Shown: positions 2,943-41,637 of the stretch, in pieces
Position numbering within the stretch: the stretch's first letter is position 1
Layout: every line of letters starts with the position of its first letter
Assembly (NCBI GenBank): GCA_002683405.1
Contig: NYTH01000057.1
Location: 1 to 64,000, forward strand
DNA length: 64,000 nt
Reading direction: 5' to 3'
Source: Salinisphaeraceae bacterium
GTDB lineage: Bacteria > Pseudomonadota > Gammaproteobacteria > Nevskiales > Salinisphaeraceae
The notes under the pieces: model-generated
Seen by the model: the letters and a program-made list of their open reading frames with translations, nothing else
Database searches by the model: none
Told to the model about the DNA's origin: nothing
Made by a program: the position numbers and the translations under genes

Positions 2943-4406
2943 ATGCCGGACGGGACAATACGGTCAACGTGGCAAGACCGGTCTGACGGCTGGCCACCCT
3001 GCAGGATATTCGGGGGAAGAGTCATTCTTGGTGTCATCGGAATTGTAGTTTCGCTGCTGCTGCTCATGTGGCTGGCCTACCGCGGTGTGTCCGTCATTAT
3101 TCTGGCGCCGGTGCTCGCGCTGCTGGCCTGTCTGTTTCAGGCCGACAGTCCGCCCCTGCTGGCCACCTATACGCAGGTGTTCATGCAGGCCATGGGCGGC
3201 TTCGCGATCAAGTTCTTCCCCATATTTCTCCTCGGTGCGGTGTTTGGCAAGCTCATGCAGGATTCGGGCTGCGCCCGCGCCATCGCCCTGAGCTTCCGTG
3301 ACTGGCTTGGCGCGCGCCACGCCATCCTCGCCATCGTGCTGGCCTGCGGGCTGCTGGAGTACGGCGGCGTGTCGGCGTTCGTGGTCGCCTTCTCCGTCTA
3401 TCCGCTGGCGGCCGCGCTGTTCCGGGAACTGGATATTCCCAAGCGGCTGCTGGGCGGCACGCTGGCTCTGGGCGCCTTTACCTTCGCCATGACCTGCCTG
3501 CCCGGTACGGCGCAGATTCACAATCTGATTCCGATGTCATATTTCGGCACCACGGCCTTTGCTGCGCCAATCCTGGGCCTTGTAGGGGGTGCCGCCATGG
3601 TGACCGGCGGGGTGACGTGGCTGAACTTCCGGCTGCGCAAGGCCCGCGCGGCGGGCGAGGGCTATGGGGAAGGGCATACGCAGGAACCGGGCAGCCTGGC
3701 AGGCGAGACGCCCCATGTGCTGCTGGCGCTGCTGCCTATTGCCCTCGTGATCGGCGTGAACTACGCCATGGTCGAATACTGGATACCGGGGTGGGACACG
3801 GACTATCTCGCCGGCGAACAGTACGGCGAAACCAGCATCGAAGCGCTGCGGGGTTTCTGGGGCATGATCACCGCGCTGCTGGCCGCCAATATTGCCGTGG
3901 CGGCGATCCATTTCCGCAGCATCGAAACGCTCAACAAGACACTCGGGGCGGGGGCCATGGGCGCGTTGTTACCCACATTCAACACCGCCTCCGAGGTAGG
4001 GTACGGGGCAACAATCGCGTCGCTGGCGGCGTTTGCCGTCGTGCGCGACGCCGTGCTGAACCTGTCGCCCGGCAATCCGCTCATTTCCGAGATGGCGGCG
4101 GTCAACGTGCTGGCGGGCATTACCGGGTCGGCGTCCGGCGGGCTCGGAATAGCGCTCGGGGCGCTGGGCGAAACCTATCTGCAGATGGCGCAGGCCGCCG
4201 GCATCGATCCGGAGATCATGCATCGCATCGCGTCGATGTCTTCCGGCGGGTTCGATTCGCTGCCGCACAACGGCGCCATCATCACGCTGCTGACCATCTG
4301 CGGTCTGACGCATCGCCAGGCCTACGGCGATATTGCGGTGGTTTCCGTGCTGATCCCCTTTCTGGTCACGGCGAGCTGCGTGGTGACCCTGAGCATGGTC
4401 TATTGA
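2943..4406 (+). CDS. GntP-family permease (gluconate or 3-hydroxybutyrate type)
   Basis: Predicted proton-coupled organic-acid importer of the GntP family, which includes gluconate and D-3-hydroxybutyrate permeases. About a dozen hydrophobic segments are visible; typical stretches are MWLAYRGVSVIILAPVLAL near the start and SSGGFDSLPHNGAIITLL near the end. The first ATG (2943) gives 487 residues, but its first 27 are charged and unlike the family. A GGGGGAAG sequence at 3012-3019 sits just before an ATT codon at 3024, which would begin the protein exactly where relatives do; ATG 3066 is the other choice. Being divergent from phaC suggests hydroxybutyrate, which is inference only. Confidence 0.85.
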   Translation: MPDGTIRSTWQDRSDGWPPCRIFGGRVILGVIGIVVSLLLLMWLAYRGVSVIILAPVLALLACLFQADSPPLLATYTQVFMQAMGGFAIKFFPIFLLGAVFGKLMQDSGCARAIALSFRDWLGARHAILAIVLACGLLEYGGVSAFVVAFSVYPLAAALFRELDIPKRLLGGTLALGAFTFAMTCLPGTAQIHNLIPMSYFGTTAFAAPILGLVGGAAMVTGGVTWLNFRLRKARAAGEGYGEGHTQEPGSLAGETPHVLLALLPIALVIGVNYAMVEYWIPGWDTDYLAGEQYGETSIEALRGFWGMITALLAANIAVAAIHFRSIETLNKTLGAGAMGALLPTFNTASEVGYGATIASLAAFAVVRDAVLNLSPGNPLISEMAAVNVLAGITGSASGGLGIALGALGETYLQMAQAAGIDPEIMHRIASMSSGGFDSLPHNGAIITLLTICGLTHRQAYGDIAVVSVLIPFLVTASCVVTLSMVY

Positions 4407-16737: not shown

Positions 16738-17597
16738 GCATGACCATACGCCAGATATCACGAGTGATCGATTCGGTTGCCACGTCCGACGGCGCCGGCG
16801 TCAAGCTGCGCCGCAGTCTGGGCAGCAGCGCCACGGCTCGGGTGGACCCGTTCCTGATGCTCGACGAGTTCTATTCCGATAACCCGGACGACTATCTCGC
16901 CGGCTTTCCGGCCCACCCTCACCGAGGTTTCGAGACCGTCACCTATATTCTCGACGGACACATGCTGCACGAAGACAACTTTGGCAACCGCGGTGAATTG
17001 CAGGCCGGTGGCGTGCAGTGGATGACAGCGGGTCGCGGCATCGTGCATTCCGAAATGCCGCAGCAAAGCGAAGGCCGCATGCGGGGTTTTCAGCTCTGGC
17101 TCAATTTGCCGGCGCAGGACAAGATGCAGCCGGCCACCTACCGCGACATTCCCGCCGAGCAGATCCCGCGGCGCGCGTTTTCCGGTGGCCATATTCGGCT
17201 CATCGCGGGTGAGCTGTCGGTCGATGGCCAGTCCGTGACCGGGCCGGCCGCGTCGCCCGTCACGCAGCCCATTTATGCGGACGTCATGCTGGAATCCGAT
17301 GCGCGCATTGATCAGCCTTTGCCCGAGTCGCACGCGGCGCTGATCTACGTCTACGAAGGCAGCCTGTCGGATGGGCAGACGCCGGTCGCCGTCAATCAGG
17401 CTGCCGTGCTGGGCGCCGGCGACGCAGTTGCGCTGCAGGCCGGCGGACAGGGCGCGCGTTTCCTGCTGCTGGCCGCGGTGCCGCTCAACGAACCCGTGGT
17501 TCAGTACGGCCCGTTTGTCATGAACAGCCGCGCCGAAATCGAGCAGGCCATGCGGGATTATCAGGCCGGCCATTTTGGCCACGCGGCAGCGGGTTGA
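16734..17597 (+). CDS. Pirin-family cupin protein
   Basis: Bicupin iron protein; some pirins act as quercetinases or redox sensors. The metal ligands known from human pirin are all present as His61, His63 (AHPHRGFETVTYIL), His105 and Glu107 (GRGIVHSEMP). 287 residues, normal length. It overlaps the DoxX stop codon by four bases and ends the azoR operon. A REP-like element follows 26 bases later. Confidence 0.93.
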   Translation: MSMTIRQISRVIDSVATSDGAGVKLRRSLGSSATARVDPFLMLDEFYSDNPDDYLAGFPAHPHRGFETVTYILDGHMLHEDNFGNRGELQAGGVQWMTAGRGIVHSEMPQQSEGRMRGFQLWLNLPAQDKMQPATYRDIPAEQIPRRAFSGGHIRLIAGELSVDGQSVTGPAASPVTQPIYADVMLESDARIDQPLPESHAALIYVYEGSLSDGQTPVAVNQAAVLGAGDAVALQAGGQGARFLLLAAVPLNEPVVQYGPFVMNSRAEIEQAMRDYQAGHFGHAAAG

Positions 17598-37217: not shown

Positions 37218-39053
37218 ATGTGTGGCATTGTTGGCGCGGTCGCCCAGCGCGACGTGGTTCCCATCCTGCTGGAGGGGCTGCGGCGGCTTGAATACCGGGG
37301 CTATGACTCGGCCGGCATTGCCGCGGTGGACGAGGACGCATCGCTGCGCTCGGCGCGGTCGGTTGGCAAGGTGGCCGATCTGGAATCGCGCCTGCAGACC
37401 ACGCCGGTGGCCGGCCATGCAGGTATTGCGCACACCCGCTGGGCCACGCACGGCGGCGTCTCCGAAAGCAACGCCCATCCGCATCTGTCCGGTAACCGAT
37501 TGGCCGTGGTCCACAACGGCATCATCGAGAATTACGAGACGCTGCGCACCGAGCTGGAAGGGCTGGGGTACAGCTTCCTGTCTCAGACCGATACCGAGGT
37601 CATTGCGCATCTGATAGACCATTGCCGCAAGACCGTGCCGGACCTGTTCGACGCCATGCAGGCCGCGCTTGCCCGGCTGGAAGGCGCCTACGCGGTGGCC
37701 ATTCTGGCGCCCGACGAGCCGGGCCGCGTGGTCGCTGCCCGCAGCGGCTCGCCACTGGTGCTCGGCGTGGGTATTGGTGAGCATTTCATTGCATCCGATG
37801 CCGCCGCGCTGCTGCCGGTCACCCGGAATTTCGTGTTCCTGGAGGAAGGCGACCGGCTGGACGTGCGTGAAGATGCATTCCATATCTTTGATCCCGACGG
37901 CGATGCCGTGGAGCGCAAGGTCCAGGAATCCAGCCTGTCGGCCGACGCTGCCGACAAGGGTGGCTACCGTCACTACATGCTCAAGGAAATCTACGAGCAG
38001 CCGGCCGCGCTGGGCAACACGCTGTCGGAACGGCTGTTTCGCGGGCATGCGCTGGAAGCCTGTCTGGGCTCGAAGGCGGCCGATCTGCTGCCCCGCGTAC
38101 GACAGGTGCATATCGTGGCCTGCGGTACGAGTTATCACGCGGGTCTGGTGGCGCGCTATTACCTGGAGCAGGGCGGCGGTGTGCCAACCACCGTGGAAGT
38201 GGCCAGCGAATACCGCTACCGCAACCCGGTGGTGCCGCCCGGCACGCTGTTCGTGGCTATTTCGCAATCCGGCGAAACGGCCGACACGCTGGCCGCGCTG
38301 CGCTACGCACAGCAAAACGGCTATCTGGCAAGCGCCGCCATCTGCAACGTGCCCGAGTCCTCGCTGGTGCGCGAATCCGACATGGCGCTGATGACCCGCG
38401 CCGGCCCGGAAATTGGCGTGGCGTCCACCAAGGCCTTTACCACTCAACTCGCCGCGCTTTGCCTGCTGGGCATGGTCATCTCGCGCCACCACCGGCTGGA
38501 TGCCCGCATGGAGCGCATCTACGGCCGCCAGCTTTCACAGACGCCCCGCCTGGTCGAAAAGGCGCTGGCGCTGGACGCAGCGATGGCGCACTGGGCGGAA
38601 GCCTTCGCCGACAAGCATCACGCCCTGTTTCTGGGACGCGGCCCGAGCTATCCGGTGGCGCTGGAAGGCGCGCTCAAGCTCAAGGAAATTTCCTACATCC
38701 ACGCCGAGGCCTACGCGGCCGGCGAGCTCAAGCACGGCCCGCTGGCACTGGTGGATGCCGATATGCCCGTCGTCGCCGTGGCGCCCAACGACCTGCTTAT
38801 CGAAAAGCTCAAGTCCAACCTTCAGGAAGTCCGCGCCCGCGGCGGCCAGCTTTACGTGCTGGCCGACCCGAACACACGCATCGAGCCGGAGGAGGGCCTG
38901 AACGTGGTCACCATGCCCGAACACATCGAAGCGCTGCAGGCGCCGCTGGTCTACACGGTGCCGCTGCAGCTTCTGGCCTACCACGTGGCCGTCGCCCGGG
39001 GCACGGATGTGGACCAGCCGCGCAACCTGGCCAAGTCCGTCACCGTCGAATAA
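37218..39053 (+). CDS. glmS: Glucosamine-6-phosphate synthase (isomerizing)
   Basis: Converts fructose-6-P and glutamine to glucosamine-6-P. 611 residues: class II amidotransferase domain with Cys2 nucleophile (MCGIVGAV) and two SIS isomerase domains (ISQSGETADTLAALR). It ends in the conserved LAKSVTVE. No glmS ribozyme is seen upstream, as expected for a proteobacterium. Confidence 0.97.
   Translation: MCGIVGAVAQRDVVPILLEGLRRLEYRGYDSAGIAAVDEDASLRSARSVGKVADLESRLQTTPVAGHAGIAHTRWATHGGVSESNAHPHLSGNRLAVVHNGIIENYETLRTELEGLGYSFLSQTDTEVIAHLIDHCRKTVPDLFDAMQAALARLEGAYAVAILAPDEPGRVVAARSGSPLVLGVGIGEHFIASDAAALLPVTRNFVFLEEGDRLDVREDAFHIFDPDGDAVERKVQESSLSADAADKGGYRHYMLKEIYEQPAALGNTLSERLFRGHALEACLGSKAADLLPRVRQVHIVACGTSYHAGLVARYYLEQGGGVPTTVEVASEYRYRNPVVPPGTLFVAISQSGETADTLAALRYAQQNGYLASAAICNVPESSLVRESDMALMTRAGPEIGVASTKAFTTQLAALCLLGMVISRHHRLDARMERIYGRQLSQTPRLVEKALALDAAMAHWAEAFADKHHALFLGRGPSYPVALEGALKLKEISYIHAEAYAAGELKHGPLALVDADMPVVAVAPNDLLIEKLKSNLQEVRARGGQLYVLADPNTRIEPEEGLNVVTMPEHIEALQAPLVYTVPLQLLAYHVAVARGTDVDQPRNLAKSVTVE
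39017..39053 (+). other. Potential attTn7 recognition segment (end of glmS)
   Basis: The last codons of glmS encode the conserved RNLAKSVTVE segment, which TnsD-type proteins recognise to insert Tn7-like elements just downstream. No Tn7 end or tns gene is present here, so the site appears unoccupied, although the next gene is a rearranged remnant. Confidence 0.5.
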
Positions 39054-39078
39054 AGCCGCGCCGGGTCTGCGCGGTTTA
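39054..39078 (+). terminator. Probable terminator after glmS
   Basis: Stem built on CCGCGC/GCGCGG, extendable through a G-T and an A-T pair, seven-base loop, followed by TTTATT. It begins right at the glmS stop codon. Confidence 0.7.
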
Positions 39079-39085
39079 TTACGGA

Positions 39086-39161
39086 CAATAAAGTTTATTG
39101 ATCGAGAATAAGGTCTGTCGTGTTGAGCACCATAATTTCGGTGTAAAAACACCGTTCTCGA
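39086..39161. other. Palindrome cluster between glmS and the synthetase/integrase remnant
   Basis: CAATAAA-G-TTTATTG (39086-39100), then an outer pair TCGAGAA/TTCTCGA (39102-39108 and 39155-39161) that encloses CGGTGT-AAAA-ACACCG (39139-39154). AT-rich compared with its neighbours. Possibly a folded recombination-site remnant or a terminator region; the integron attC core rule is not met. Confidence 0.5.
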
Positions 39162-39197
39162 CCAGAAATTGCCTAAGTCTATCGAGGACTTTCAACG

Positions 39198-40067
39198 CTA
39201 CCCGAGGGGCGATCTCACGCCGGCAAAGCGATTACCCAGCACATGCGTATAGATCTGCGTGGTCCGAATATCAGGATGGTCGAAGGTCAGCTGAATCATG
39301 GCGGGAACCAGCGTGAGATTGGTGGCGGCGTGCCTGCCACAGTCGGCAATGACGCGCTTGGGGTCGAAGCTCTCGTGGATGACCGTGCGGGCGCCGCTCA
39401 TGACCGACAGCGTCATGGAAGTGAAGCCGGCGATGTGAAACAGGGGCGCGGCGAGCAACTGCACGCCGTCGGCAGGCACATGAATATGCTCGCGACAGGC
39501 CATGGCATTCAGATACAGCGCCGAGTGACGCAGCATGACGCCCTTGGGCAACCCGGTGGTCCCCCCGGTGTACATGATGCCCAGCAGCGATTGATCCGCG
39601 GTGAGTTCCTCGTTGAACGGCTCGGCGGCCTGCATGAGCGATTCGATGGATGTGGCCCAGTCCGGGCATTGCGCGGGGTCGCCAATGAACAGGTAATGCT
39701 CGACCGGGACGTCGGCGTCTCGCAGCGCCTCGACACCCGCCTGCATGCCTTCGTCGAAGAGCAGGGCCCTGCTGTCGGAGTTGGTCAGCAGGTACTGCCA
39801 CTCGGGCACGGCCAGGCGAATGTTCAGCGGGACGATGCGCAGGCCTGCGAGCGGCAGACCGAACCATGATTCGCAATAGACCGTGTTATTGAGGCTGAGC
39901 ACGGCGACCGCGTCATTGGTCTGCAGCCCCAACCCCCGTGTGGCCGCCGCCAGGCGTCGCACCCGCCCCGCGGTTTCACGCCAGCTCCACCGCCGGTCGT
40001 GGAAGTCGAATGCGGGCTGGTCACCGTACAGCGCCTCATTGCGGAAAATCATTTGGGCCAGATGCAT
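39198..40067 (-). pseudogene. Truncated acyl-CoA synthetase fused to integron-integrase C-terminus
   Basis: 289 residues against about 510-550 for intact relatives. Residues 1 to about 263 are the N-terminal part of an AMP-forming acyl-CoA synthetase, with the P-loop YTGGTTGLPKGVMLRHSAL and PLFHIAGFTSMTLSVMSG. The adenylation subdomain hinge and the whole C-terminal domain are missing. After FDHPD the frame continues IRTTQIYTHVLGNRFAGV then RSPLG-stop. This matches the end of tyrosine recombinases, including the nucleophile Tyr, and most resembles integron integrases (IYTHVL...GVRSP). The synthetase activity should be lost. The fused end lies next to glmS, a known insertion hotspot. Confidence 0.8.
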
Positions 40068-40347: not shown

Positions 40348-41637
40348 ATGCGCATCTTCAAGTATCTGCTTATTCTGTTGCTGGTCGGCGTGGCCGGTCT
40401 GCTCGTCTGGATGGCCCGCCCGCTGGCGCCGGTGGCCACCGCGCCGGGGCCGAACCCGGTGCTGCCCGACGGTATGGCCACCCTGCGCGATGCGGTTGTA
40501 GTGGGGAGCAACTGGGACGGCACCGCCGAGGTGTTCGACCCGGAATCGTTCGAGATACTGGCAACCTACAATCTGGTGCCCGACCTCGAGGCGCGCTTCG
40601 CCGAAATCAACGACAGCTACTATCGGCGCATCGCGGCCCGCTTCATTCGCCACGTGATCGGCGAGGGCAACGACCAGCTTGTCGACGATCTGTTTCCTTC
40701 GAAGGACGGTCGCTATCTTTATGTGTCGCGCCCCAGCTTTGCCGACGCCATCGCCCTGGACGTGGTCACCGGCCGGATCGCCTGGCGCACGCCGGTAAAA
40801 GGCGTGCGGTCCGACCACGCCGCGCTGTCGCCTGATGGCGAGACGTTTCTGATTTCCGCATCCACCGGCGGCGTGGTGCACGCCATCGACACGGCCACCG
40901 GCAAGATTGTCGACAACTTCTATCCGGGTGATCAGCCGCACGAGAGCAATTATTCGAAGGACGGCGAGCGTATCTACCACGCCACCATTGGTCGCGTGTT
41001 CATTCCCACCACGGCGGACTGGCTGGATTGGCTGAAGGGCGAGCGGCGCTTTGTGGTCGCGGATGCCGACAGCTACGAGATCATCAAGAGCGTCGACATG
41101 GGCGAGAAGCTCGAGGAGTACGGGCTGGACTGGGTGGATTCCGCCGTGCGGCCCATGGCGATCATGCCGGATGAAAGCTATGCCTACCTGCAGGTGTCGT
41201 TCTTCCATGGCTTTTTCGAGTACGACCTGGACGAACACCGCATTACCCGCCACGTCGATTTGCCCGTGCCGGAGGCGATTCAGCGGCTGCCGCGCCGTCA
41301 GTACCAGCTGAATTCGGCGCATCACGGGCTGGCGCTGAACCACGCGGGTACCCGGCTGTGCGTGGCCGCCACCATGTCCGGTTACGCGGCCATTGTTGAT
41401 CGCGAGACCTTCGAGTACGACATCGTTACGCTCTCTGAAGACCCGCTTGGCGCGAAGCCCTACTGGGCTACGGAAAGCCGGGACGGCAAGCACTGCTATG
41501 TGTCCGTCAGCGAGCAGGATCGGGTGTCGGTTATCGATTTCGACACGGCGGAGGAGGTGGCCAGCGTGCCGGTCGGCAATCATCCGCAGCGGATTCGCAC
41601 GGGGCGGCTGCTGGTGCCGGGTGCGGAATCCCGCTGA
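40348..41637 (+). CDS. Membrane-anchored YVTN/YncE-like beta-propeller protein
   Basis: 429 residues: an N-terminal membrane helix (residues about 5-22, [18 protein letters not shown]), then repeated four-stranded blades with typical motifs such as [30 protein letters not shown] and [20 protein letters not shown]. Probably periplasmic and scaffold-like. It precedes DUF1302 and DUF1329 genes on the same strand after a 383-base gap; propeller proteins often accompany this pair in hydrocarbon and steroid degraders. No enzyme activity is implied. Confidence 0.8.

Follow-up and report, generated by a model that had tools for sequence, protein, structure and literature searches.

The reading frame downstream of glmS at this locus poses a simple question: how did a gene that begins as an acyl-CoA synthetase come to end as an integron integrase, and what did the site carry before that happened? 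An initial annotation, made from the letters alone, suggested that a lost integron or a cassette-driven rearrangement had left a fusion at a hotspot for mobile elements. We examined that suggestion across the window, by which we mean the whole 64,000-nucleotide stretch, and in the rest of the genome, its relatives and plasmid records.

An acyl-CoA ligase joined to an integrase tail

Translation confirmed the frame as described, a minus-strand ORF of 289 amino acids at 39198-40067, open throughout and free of stops or frameshifts. Residues 11 to 270 match the Pfam AMP-binding family (PF00501, E=8.6e-49), and on this evidence residues 1 to about 264 are an AMP-binding acyl-CoA ligase. The match stops about two thirds of the way along the profile (positions 5-278 of 384), leaving neither a complete adenylation domain nor a C-terminal subdomain. 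The final 26 residues, HPDIRTTQIYTHVLGNRFAGVRSPLG, are assigned to integron integrases (TIGR02249, E=2.5e-7, profile 288-312 of 315) in preference to other tyrosine recombinases, the next models being Xer-type at 9e-4 or worse, and a genome-wide search with TIGR02249 independently picked the same site (E=1.5e-6). Pfam Phage_integrase gave a weak match at residues 256-277 (E=0.055). The ORF is thus, as proposed, a ligase N-terminus fused to the C-terminus of an IntI, and the tail resembles integron integrases rather than acyl-CoA ligases. Third-position GC content changes with the family, from 0.83 in the ligase part and 0.81 in glmS to 0.65 in the tail and 0.68 in a complete intI on contig C45 of the same genome, a shift at the junction that supports an origin of the tail in another, integrase gene. 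The features discussed here are as follows.

37218..39053, plus strand: glmS, glutamine--fructose-6-phosphate transaminase (TIGR01135, 833 bits)
39076..39121, no strand assigned: putative Tn7-type end remnant, TTATTACGGACAATAAAGTT, 22 bp past the glmS stop (paired motif, relatives, shuffles)
39122..39197, no strand assigned: spacer from the end remnant to the intI stop (comparison with the C45 intI flank)
39198..39275, minus strand: last ~25 codons and stop of a lost intI, with the catalytic Tyr in IYTHV (TIGR02249, identity to C45 intI, GC3)
39265..39278, minus strand: probable deletion junction, codons H-P-D-I-(R) (comparison with native ligases C33:56136 and G121 and with C45 intI)
39276..40067, minus strand: N-terminal ~264 residues of the ligase, including YTGGTTGLPKG, the C-terminal part (about half the enzyme) being gone (PF00501)

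Judged by what it retains, the tail is a remnant of intI and not an integrase. The full R-H-R-Y catalytic set and the IntI-specific extra domain are missing, only the last 26 residues with their Tyr being present, and the 64-kb window holds no further pieces of intI. The tail keeps a nucleophilic tyrosine without its partner residues, and the ligase keeps YTGGTTGLPKG without the rest of the adenylation domain. Because both parts are incomplete, the product should be inactive as a ligase and as a recombinase, and the 289-residue fusion is almost certainly a nonfunctional pseudogene. The strength of the two matches is far beyond chance, and the genomic scar is real.

No orthologue of the full chain was present in 40 relatives or in 274 genomes across the class, where only separate ligases occur, and plasmids yielded no second example. 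The intact, conserved full-length homologue that would have spoken for an ordinary protein was not found; native ligases continue differently after HPD or HPN. The ligase part is 41% identical to a full-length paralogue in its own genome (C33:56136) and 47% identical to a full-length protein of genome G121 (a 540-amino-acid frame), and a scan of the genome contigs turned up no close relatives of the ligase chain. Beside the ORF, positions 40348-41637 encode a 429-residue beta-propeller protein with a patchy distribution (14 of 99 other genomes searched, best identity 76%). We saw no linkage of this gene to ligases or glmS in relatives, so the neighbor gives no clue to the origin of the ligase.

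The junction and the source of the tail

Searching the wider genome for intI and attC, as the initial annotation had proposed, revealed on C45 a full-length intI at 3141-4079 (TIGR02249 match 3144-4076, 393.6 bits, E=8.3e-118). The region C45:1-4079 (locus L047) carries an integron of chromosomal type that is intact. It has at least two canonical attC sites, at L047:2366-2461 and 683-761, whose arms read GCCTAAC...GTTGGG(G)C; each forms a hairpin on the strand predicted to undergo recombination (z-scores -1.7 and -4.4). One of its cassettes, L047:1448-2482 on the minus strand, encodes a TIR-domain protein resembling anti-phage TIR proteins. A tyrosine integrase at L047:5900-7973, near tRNA-Met and upstream of rimP/nusA-like genes, likely marks a genomic island beside this integron.

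The C45 integrase ends in HTDIRTTQIYTHVLGNRFAGVRSPLG, identical to the window tail at 25 of 26 residues. At the DNA level the two are 84% identical over 93 bp (E=1.6e-21), with 11 differences in 81 bases (70 identical). From the D codon to the stop there are nine nucleotide differences in eight codons, all of them synonymous, and the sole amino acid difference is the junction codon, P in one and T in the other. Changes confined to synonymous positions suggest that the source intI diverged under selection as a working gene and was truncated later. By this comparison the tail is derived from a distinct, once-functional intI and is not a copy of the C45 gene.

Comparison of ligases, IntI and window also resolved the junction. 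Ten bases, CTGATATTCG, are common to the window and C45 intI, and the sequence ahead of them resembles the ligases. The window reads LVPAMIQLTFDHPDIRTTQIYTHV and IntI HTDIRTTQIYTHV, while the paralogue C33:56136 has LVPAMAQLVFDHPDFAADRLRSL (FDHPDFAAD) at the same place and the closest full-length relative found, that of G121, has LVPAMIQMMFDHPNFDAAKLANI (FDHPNFDAA), native ligases thus running FDHP(D/N)F. The switch therefore falls in the H-P-D codons at 39,265-39,278, inside two coding sequences and in frame. A change of family had been placed at about 39280; the change stands and its position is corrected by a few bases. The suggestion that the junction sits at an H-x-D shared by both families, with short DNA identity, is likewise supported, and the fusion probably arose by a deletion at short shared DNA in the H-P/T-D codons.

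Of the two origins offered initially, the lost integron is supported, and nothing points to a cassette-driven (attC-mediated) rearrangement, given that the junction lies inside coding sequences and that no credible attC occurs in the window. Sites were sought with a covariance model built from the two C45 attC sites, which replaced a regular-expression scan that was too strict. This model scores 88 to 112 bits in C45 itself, its training set, and 20 to 23 bits in named integrons outside that set. In loci from Pseudomonas, Halomonas, Halopseudomonas and Aeromonas, its hits lie on the side of intI where attC belongs. Nothing in the window rose above noise (best 15.3 bits, E=0.57, at 17132-17229), and no attC accompanies the intI remnant as it would in a complete integron platform. 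Rfam gave no match within the window. Elsewhere in the genome, attC-like sites at C46:33963-34035 (L209:1501-1574) may bound a cassette with no integrase nearby; they adjoin an apparent IS91-like transposase gene and possibly represent a detached array. A single attC-like site lies at C54:102192-102266 (33.9 bits).

A probable Tn7-type end beyond glmS

Only 144 bases separate the glmS stop (39053) from the intI stop (39198), and the initial annotation, which was right to expect a mobile-element site there, missed what lies between them. The 3' end of glmS, an essential gene, is bound by TnsD and is the attachment site of Tn7, and Tn7-type ends bear arrays of TnsB sites (PMC11406308). In the window, the unit TTATTACGGACAATAAAGTT is followed 8 bp later by a second unit, GAGAATAAGGTCTGTCG, at 39104-39120, which puts AATAAAGTC-like units at +33 and +53 from the glmS stop. 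This is the only place in the 3.72-Mb genome with the paired motif; its reversed control is absent, and none of 20000 spacer shuffles placed both units at these positions. The right end of Tn7 reads TGTGGGCGGACAATAAAGTC, as confirmed in plasmid records (62 at >=99%), and has CGGACAATAAAGT in common with the window end. The terminal TGT expected of a Tn7-type end is not preserved in the window, which has TTA, and is present at the appropriate distance in four relatives (G038, G028, G024 and G030). A blastn search of 39054-39200 against plasmids gave nothing useful, and the motif test was used instead. The spacer resembles the C45 intI flank only weakly, in about the first 16 bp beyond the intI stop.

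Other traces of a transposon are scarce. Genes for TnsD and TnsA were not found in the genome; a Mu-transpos_C search of the genome also gave no match, with controls equally silent. No repeat cluster marking a far end was seen elsewhere in the window or in the 19 kb of sequence past it, a search that a divergent end would escape.

The proposed comparison of the region downstream of glmS in relatives was run on 30 loci of the order, scanning about 1.5 kb past each gene for AATAAAGTC with at most one mismatch. Candidate ends were found in six. Units stand at +33 and +53 in the window and G028, at +35 and +55 in G024 and G030, and at +32 in G038, with a weak one at +35 in G010; the other 24 loci have no unit near the glmS stop, and only four further sites occur elsewhere in the downstream regions of all 30 loci together. 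Thus the repeats lie at a fixed short distance past glmS and resemble TnsB sites. Taken with their uniqueness as a pair, their positions in relatives and what is known of TnsD and TnsB, they most likely mark a Tn7-type end at attTn7 that has eroded. Tn7-type elements do occur in the family to which the window belongs, as genome G013 shows: its glmS contig encodes TnsD and TnsA about 30 kb away from glmS.

One relative pairs such an end with its own integrase. In G038 a decayed intI (L201, G038:C1:535531-536961) is convergent with glmS, 389 bp past the glmS coding end and just inside that genome's own Tn7-type end. The gene has an internal TAG, is cut by an insertion labeled IS3-like from a reading of its translated sequence, and lies near a contig end; its product is 48% identical to C45 IntI, which makes this a different integron from that on C45. 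Of the 6 loci with an end, 2 accordingly have an integrase beside glmS, against 0 of the 24 that lack an end (Fisher p=0.034), an association that is a lead only, being post hoc, resting on two loci and drawn from genomes some of which are related. Among the IntI-bearing loci L081-L190, none had glmS beside intI within the locus sequences compared. Large genes of a defense-cargo type also lie downstream of glmS in this group, encoding a YobI-like P-loop NTPase in G013 (L227) and a Wadjet JetD-like protein in G009 (L229).

A proposed history of insertion and loss

We propose, with a probability of roughly 0.78, that an integron arrived as cargo of a Tn7-type element at attTn7 and that a deletion then joined the ligase gene to the intI tail. 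An integron platform would once have lain past glmS, its intI pointing toward glmS from a position just within the transposon's glmS-proximal end. A later, large single deletion, running from inside an acyl-CoA ligase gene on the same strand to about codon 287 of intI, would have eliminated attI, any cassettes, all other parts of intI and the C-terminal portion of the ligase. The ligase gene may have been either cargo of the element or a chromosomal gene past its far end. Both attI and the Pc promoter would have been in the deleted part, and the 289-codon ORF would survive because the frame was kept by chance. Cargo status, deletion mechanism and order of events are what we infer from the present arrangement; the former presence of an integron here is best accounted for by a Tn7-type end lying between glmS and the tail.

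The main competitor keeps the deletion scar but makes the integron an old chromosomal platform beside glmS, the repeats coming from a different, earlier or later insertion. Platforms of this kind exist in Xanthomonas, adjoining one housekeeping gene (ilvD) and mostly with inactivated intI (PMC12444791), and the genome has no TnsA or TnsD genes left. We consider this account a good deal less probable, since the repeats lie between glmS and the tail at the attTn7 distance, and in the order glmS has no intact intI as a fixed neighbor: of 29 other loci just 1 holds an intI, and that locus also has an end. It is a small concern that the tail might derive from a XerC/D-like or phage tyrosine recombinase. 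The IYTHV region is common to many tyrosine recombinases and Xer-type models do match weakly, yet the integron integrase model is best by more than three orders of magnitude, and the near identity to an attC-flanked intI and a best plasmid DNA match to intI2 leave that origin scarcely credible.

Two further accounts would strip the fusion of its history. In a genome of 58 contigs with a second intI, unrelated stretches might have been joined in assembly through the repeated intI 3' end, but the contig around the join spans 185 kb, the two tails have 11 mismatches in 81 bases and only about 32 identical in a row, too little to mislead normal assembly, and the tail falls just inside a biologically expected end; an artefact is very improbable. 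It is just as improbable that the chimera works and has been kept, for instance as a regulator that combines an inactive adenylation domain with a recombinase tail. Its 289 codons are open, but a recent deletion would be expected to leave an open frame as well, the ligase domain has lost its C-terminal part, and relatives, class-wide genomes and plasmids offer no parallel. Insertion of a transposon-borne integron followed by deletion remains our preferred history.

Its closest precedent is the class 2 integron in Tn7, whose intI2 is inactivated by a stop (PMC7500258). Both would place an integron in a Tn7-type element at attTn7, with an outward-facing, inactivated intI at a transposon end, and among plasmid sequences the tail DNA matches intI2 best (81.7% over 60 bp). 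We nevertheless rejected a class 2 origin: the similarity is due to the conserved C-terminus, and the full-length C45 IntI is only 47% identical to IntI2. The positions differ as well: the tail comes within 77 bp of the second repeat unit at the glmS-proximal end, but in Tn7 the intI2 gene is found on the glmS-distal side, finishing about 950 bp from the far end in R721. The window is also without tns genes, attI or cassettes. Xanthomonas platforms decay similarly at a single housekeeping locus, most intI being inactivated by deletions, stops or frameshifts (PMC12444791), but the locus is another one and cassette arrays often persist, whereas the window keeps only about 25 codons. The C45 integron shares the IntI C-terminus and a similar GC3, and differs in its locus, its complete gene, its 14% different tail DNA and its lack of a Tn7-type repeat pair. 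A full-text search of the literature for integron integrases at attTn7, at glmS or in Tn7-like elements found Enterobacterales only and none in this order, which is weak evidence. Tn7-borne integrons at glmS are already known, as is the decay of integrons through deletions; what is new here is a different intI and a tail by the glmS-proximal end.

More tentatively, the glmS site of this order may have been visited repeatedly by Tn7-type elements carrying non-class-2 integrons by their glmS-proximal end. Such elements could form an independent lineage of transposon-borne integrons, with the window and G038 as decayed examples, though we regard this reading as less likely than not. The locus itself is a readable fossil of integron loss: one deletion and one fusion, which can be compared with an intact integron elsewhere in the genome. 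Should the Tn7-type ends be confirmed, the locus would provide an environmental case of integrons as cargo at attTn7, a route known mainly from clinical class 2 integrons.
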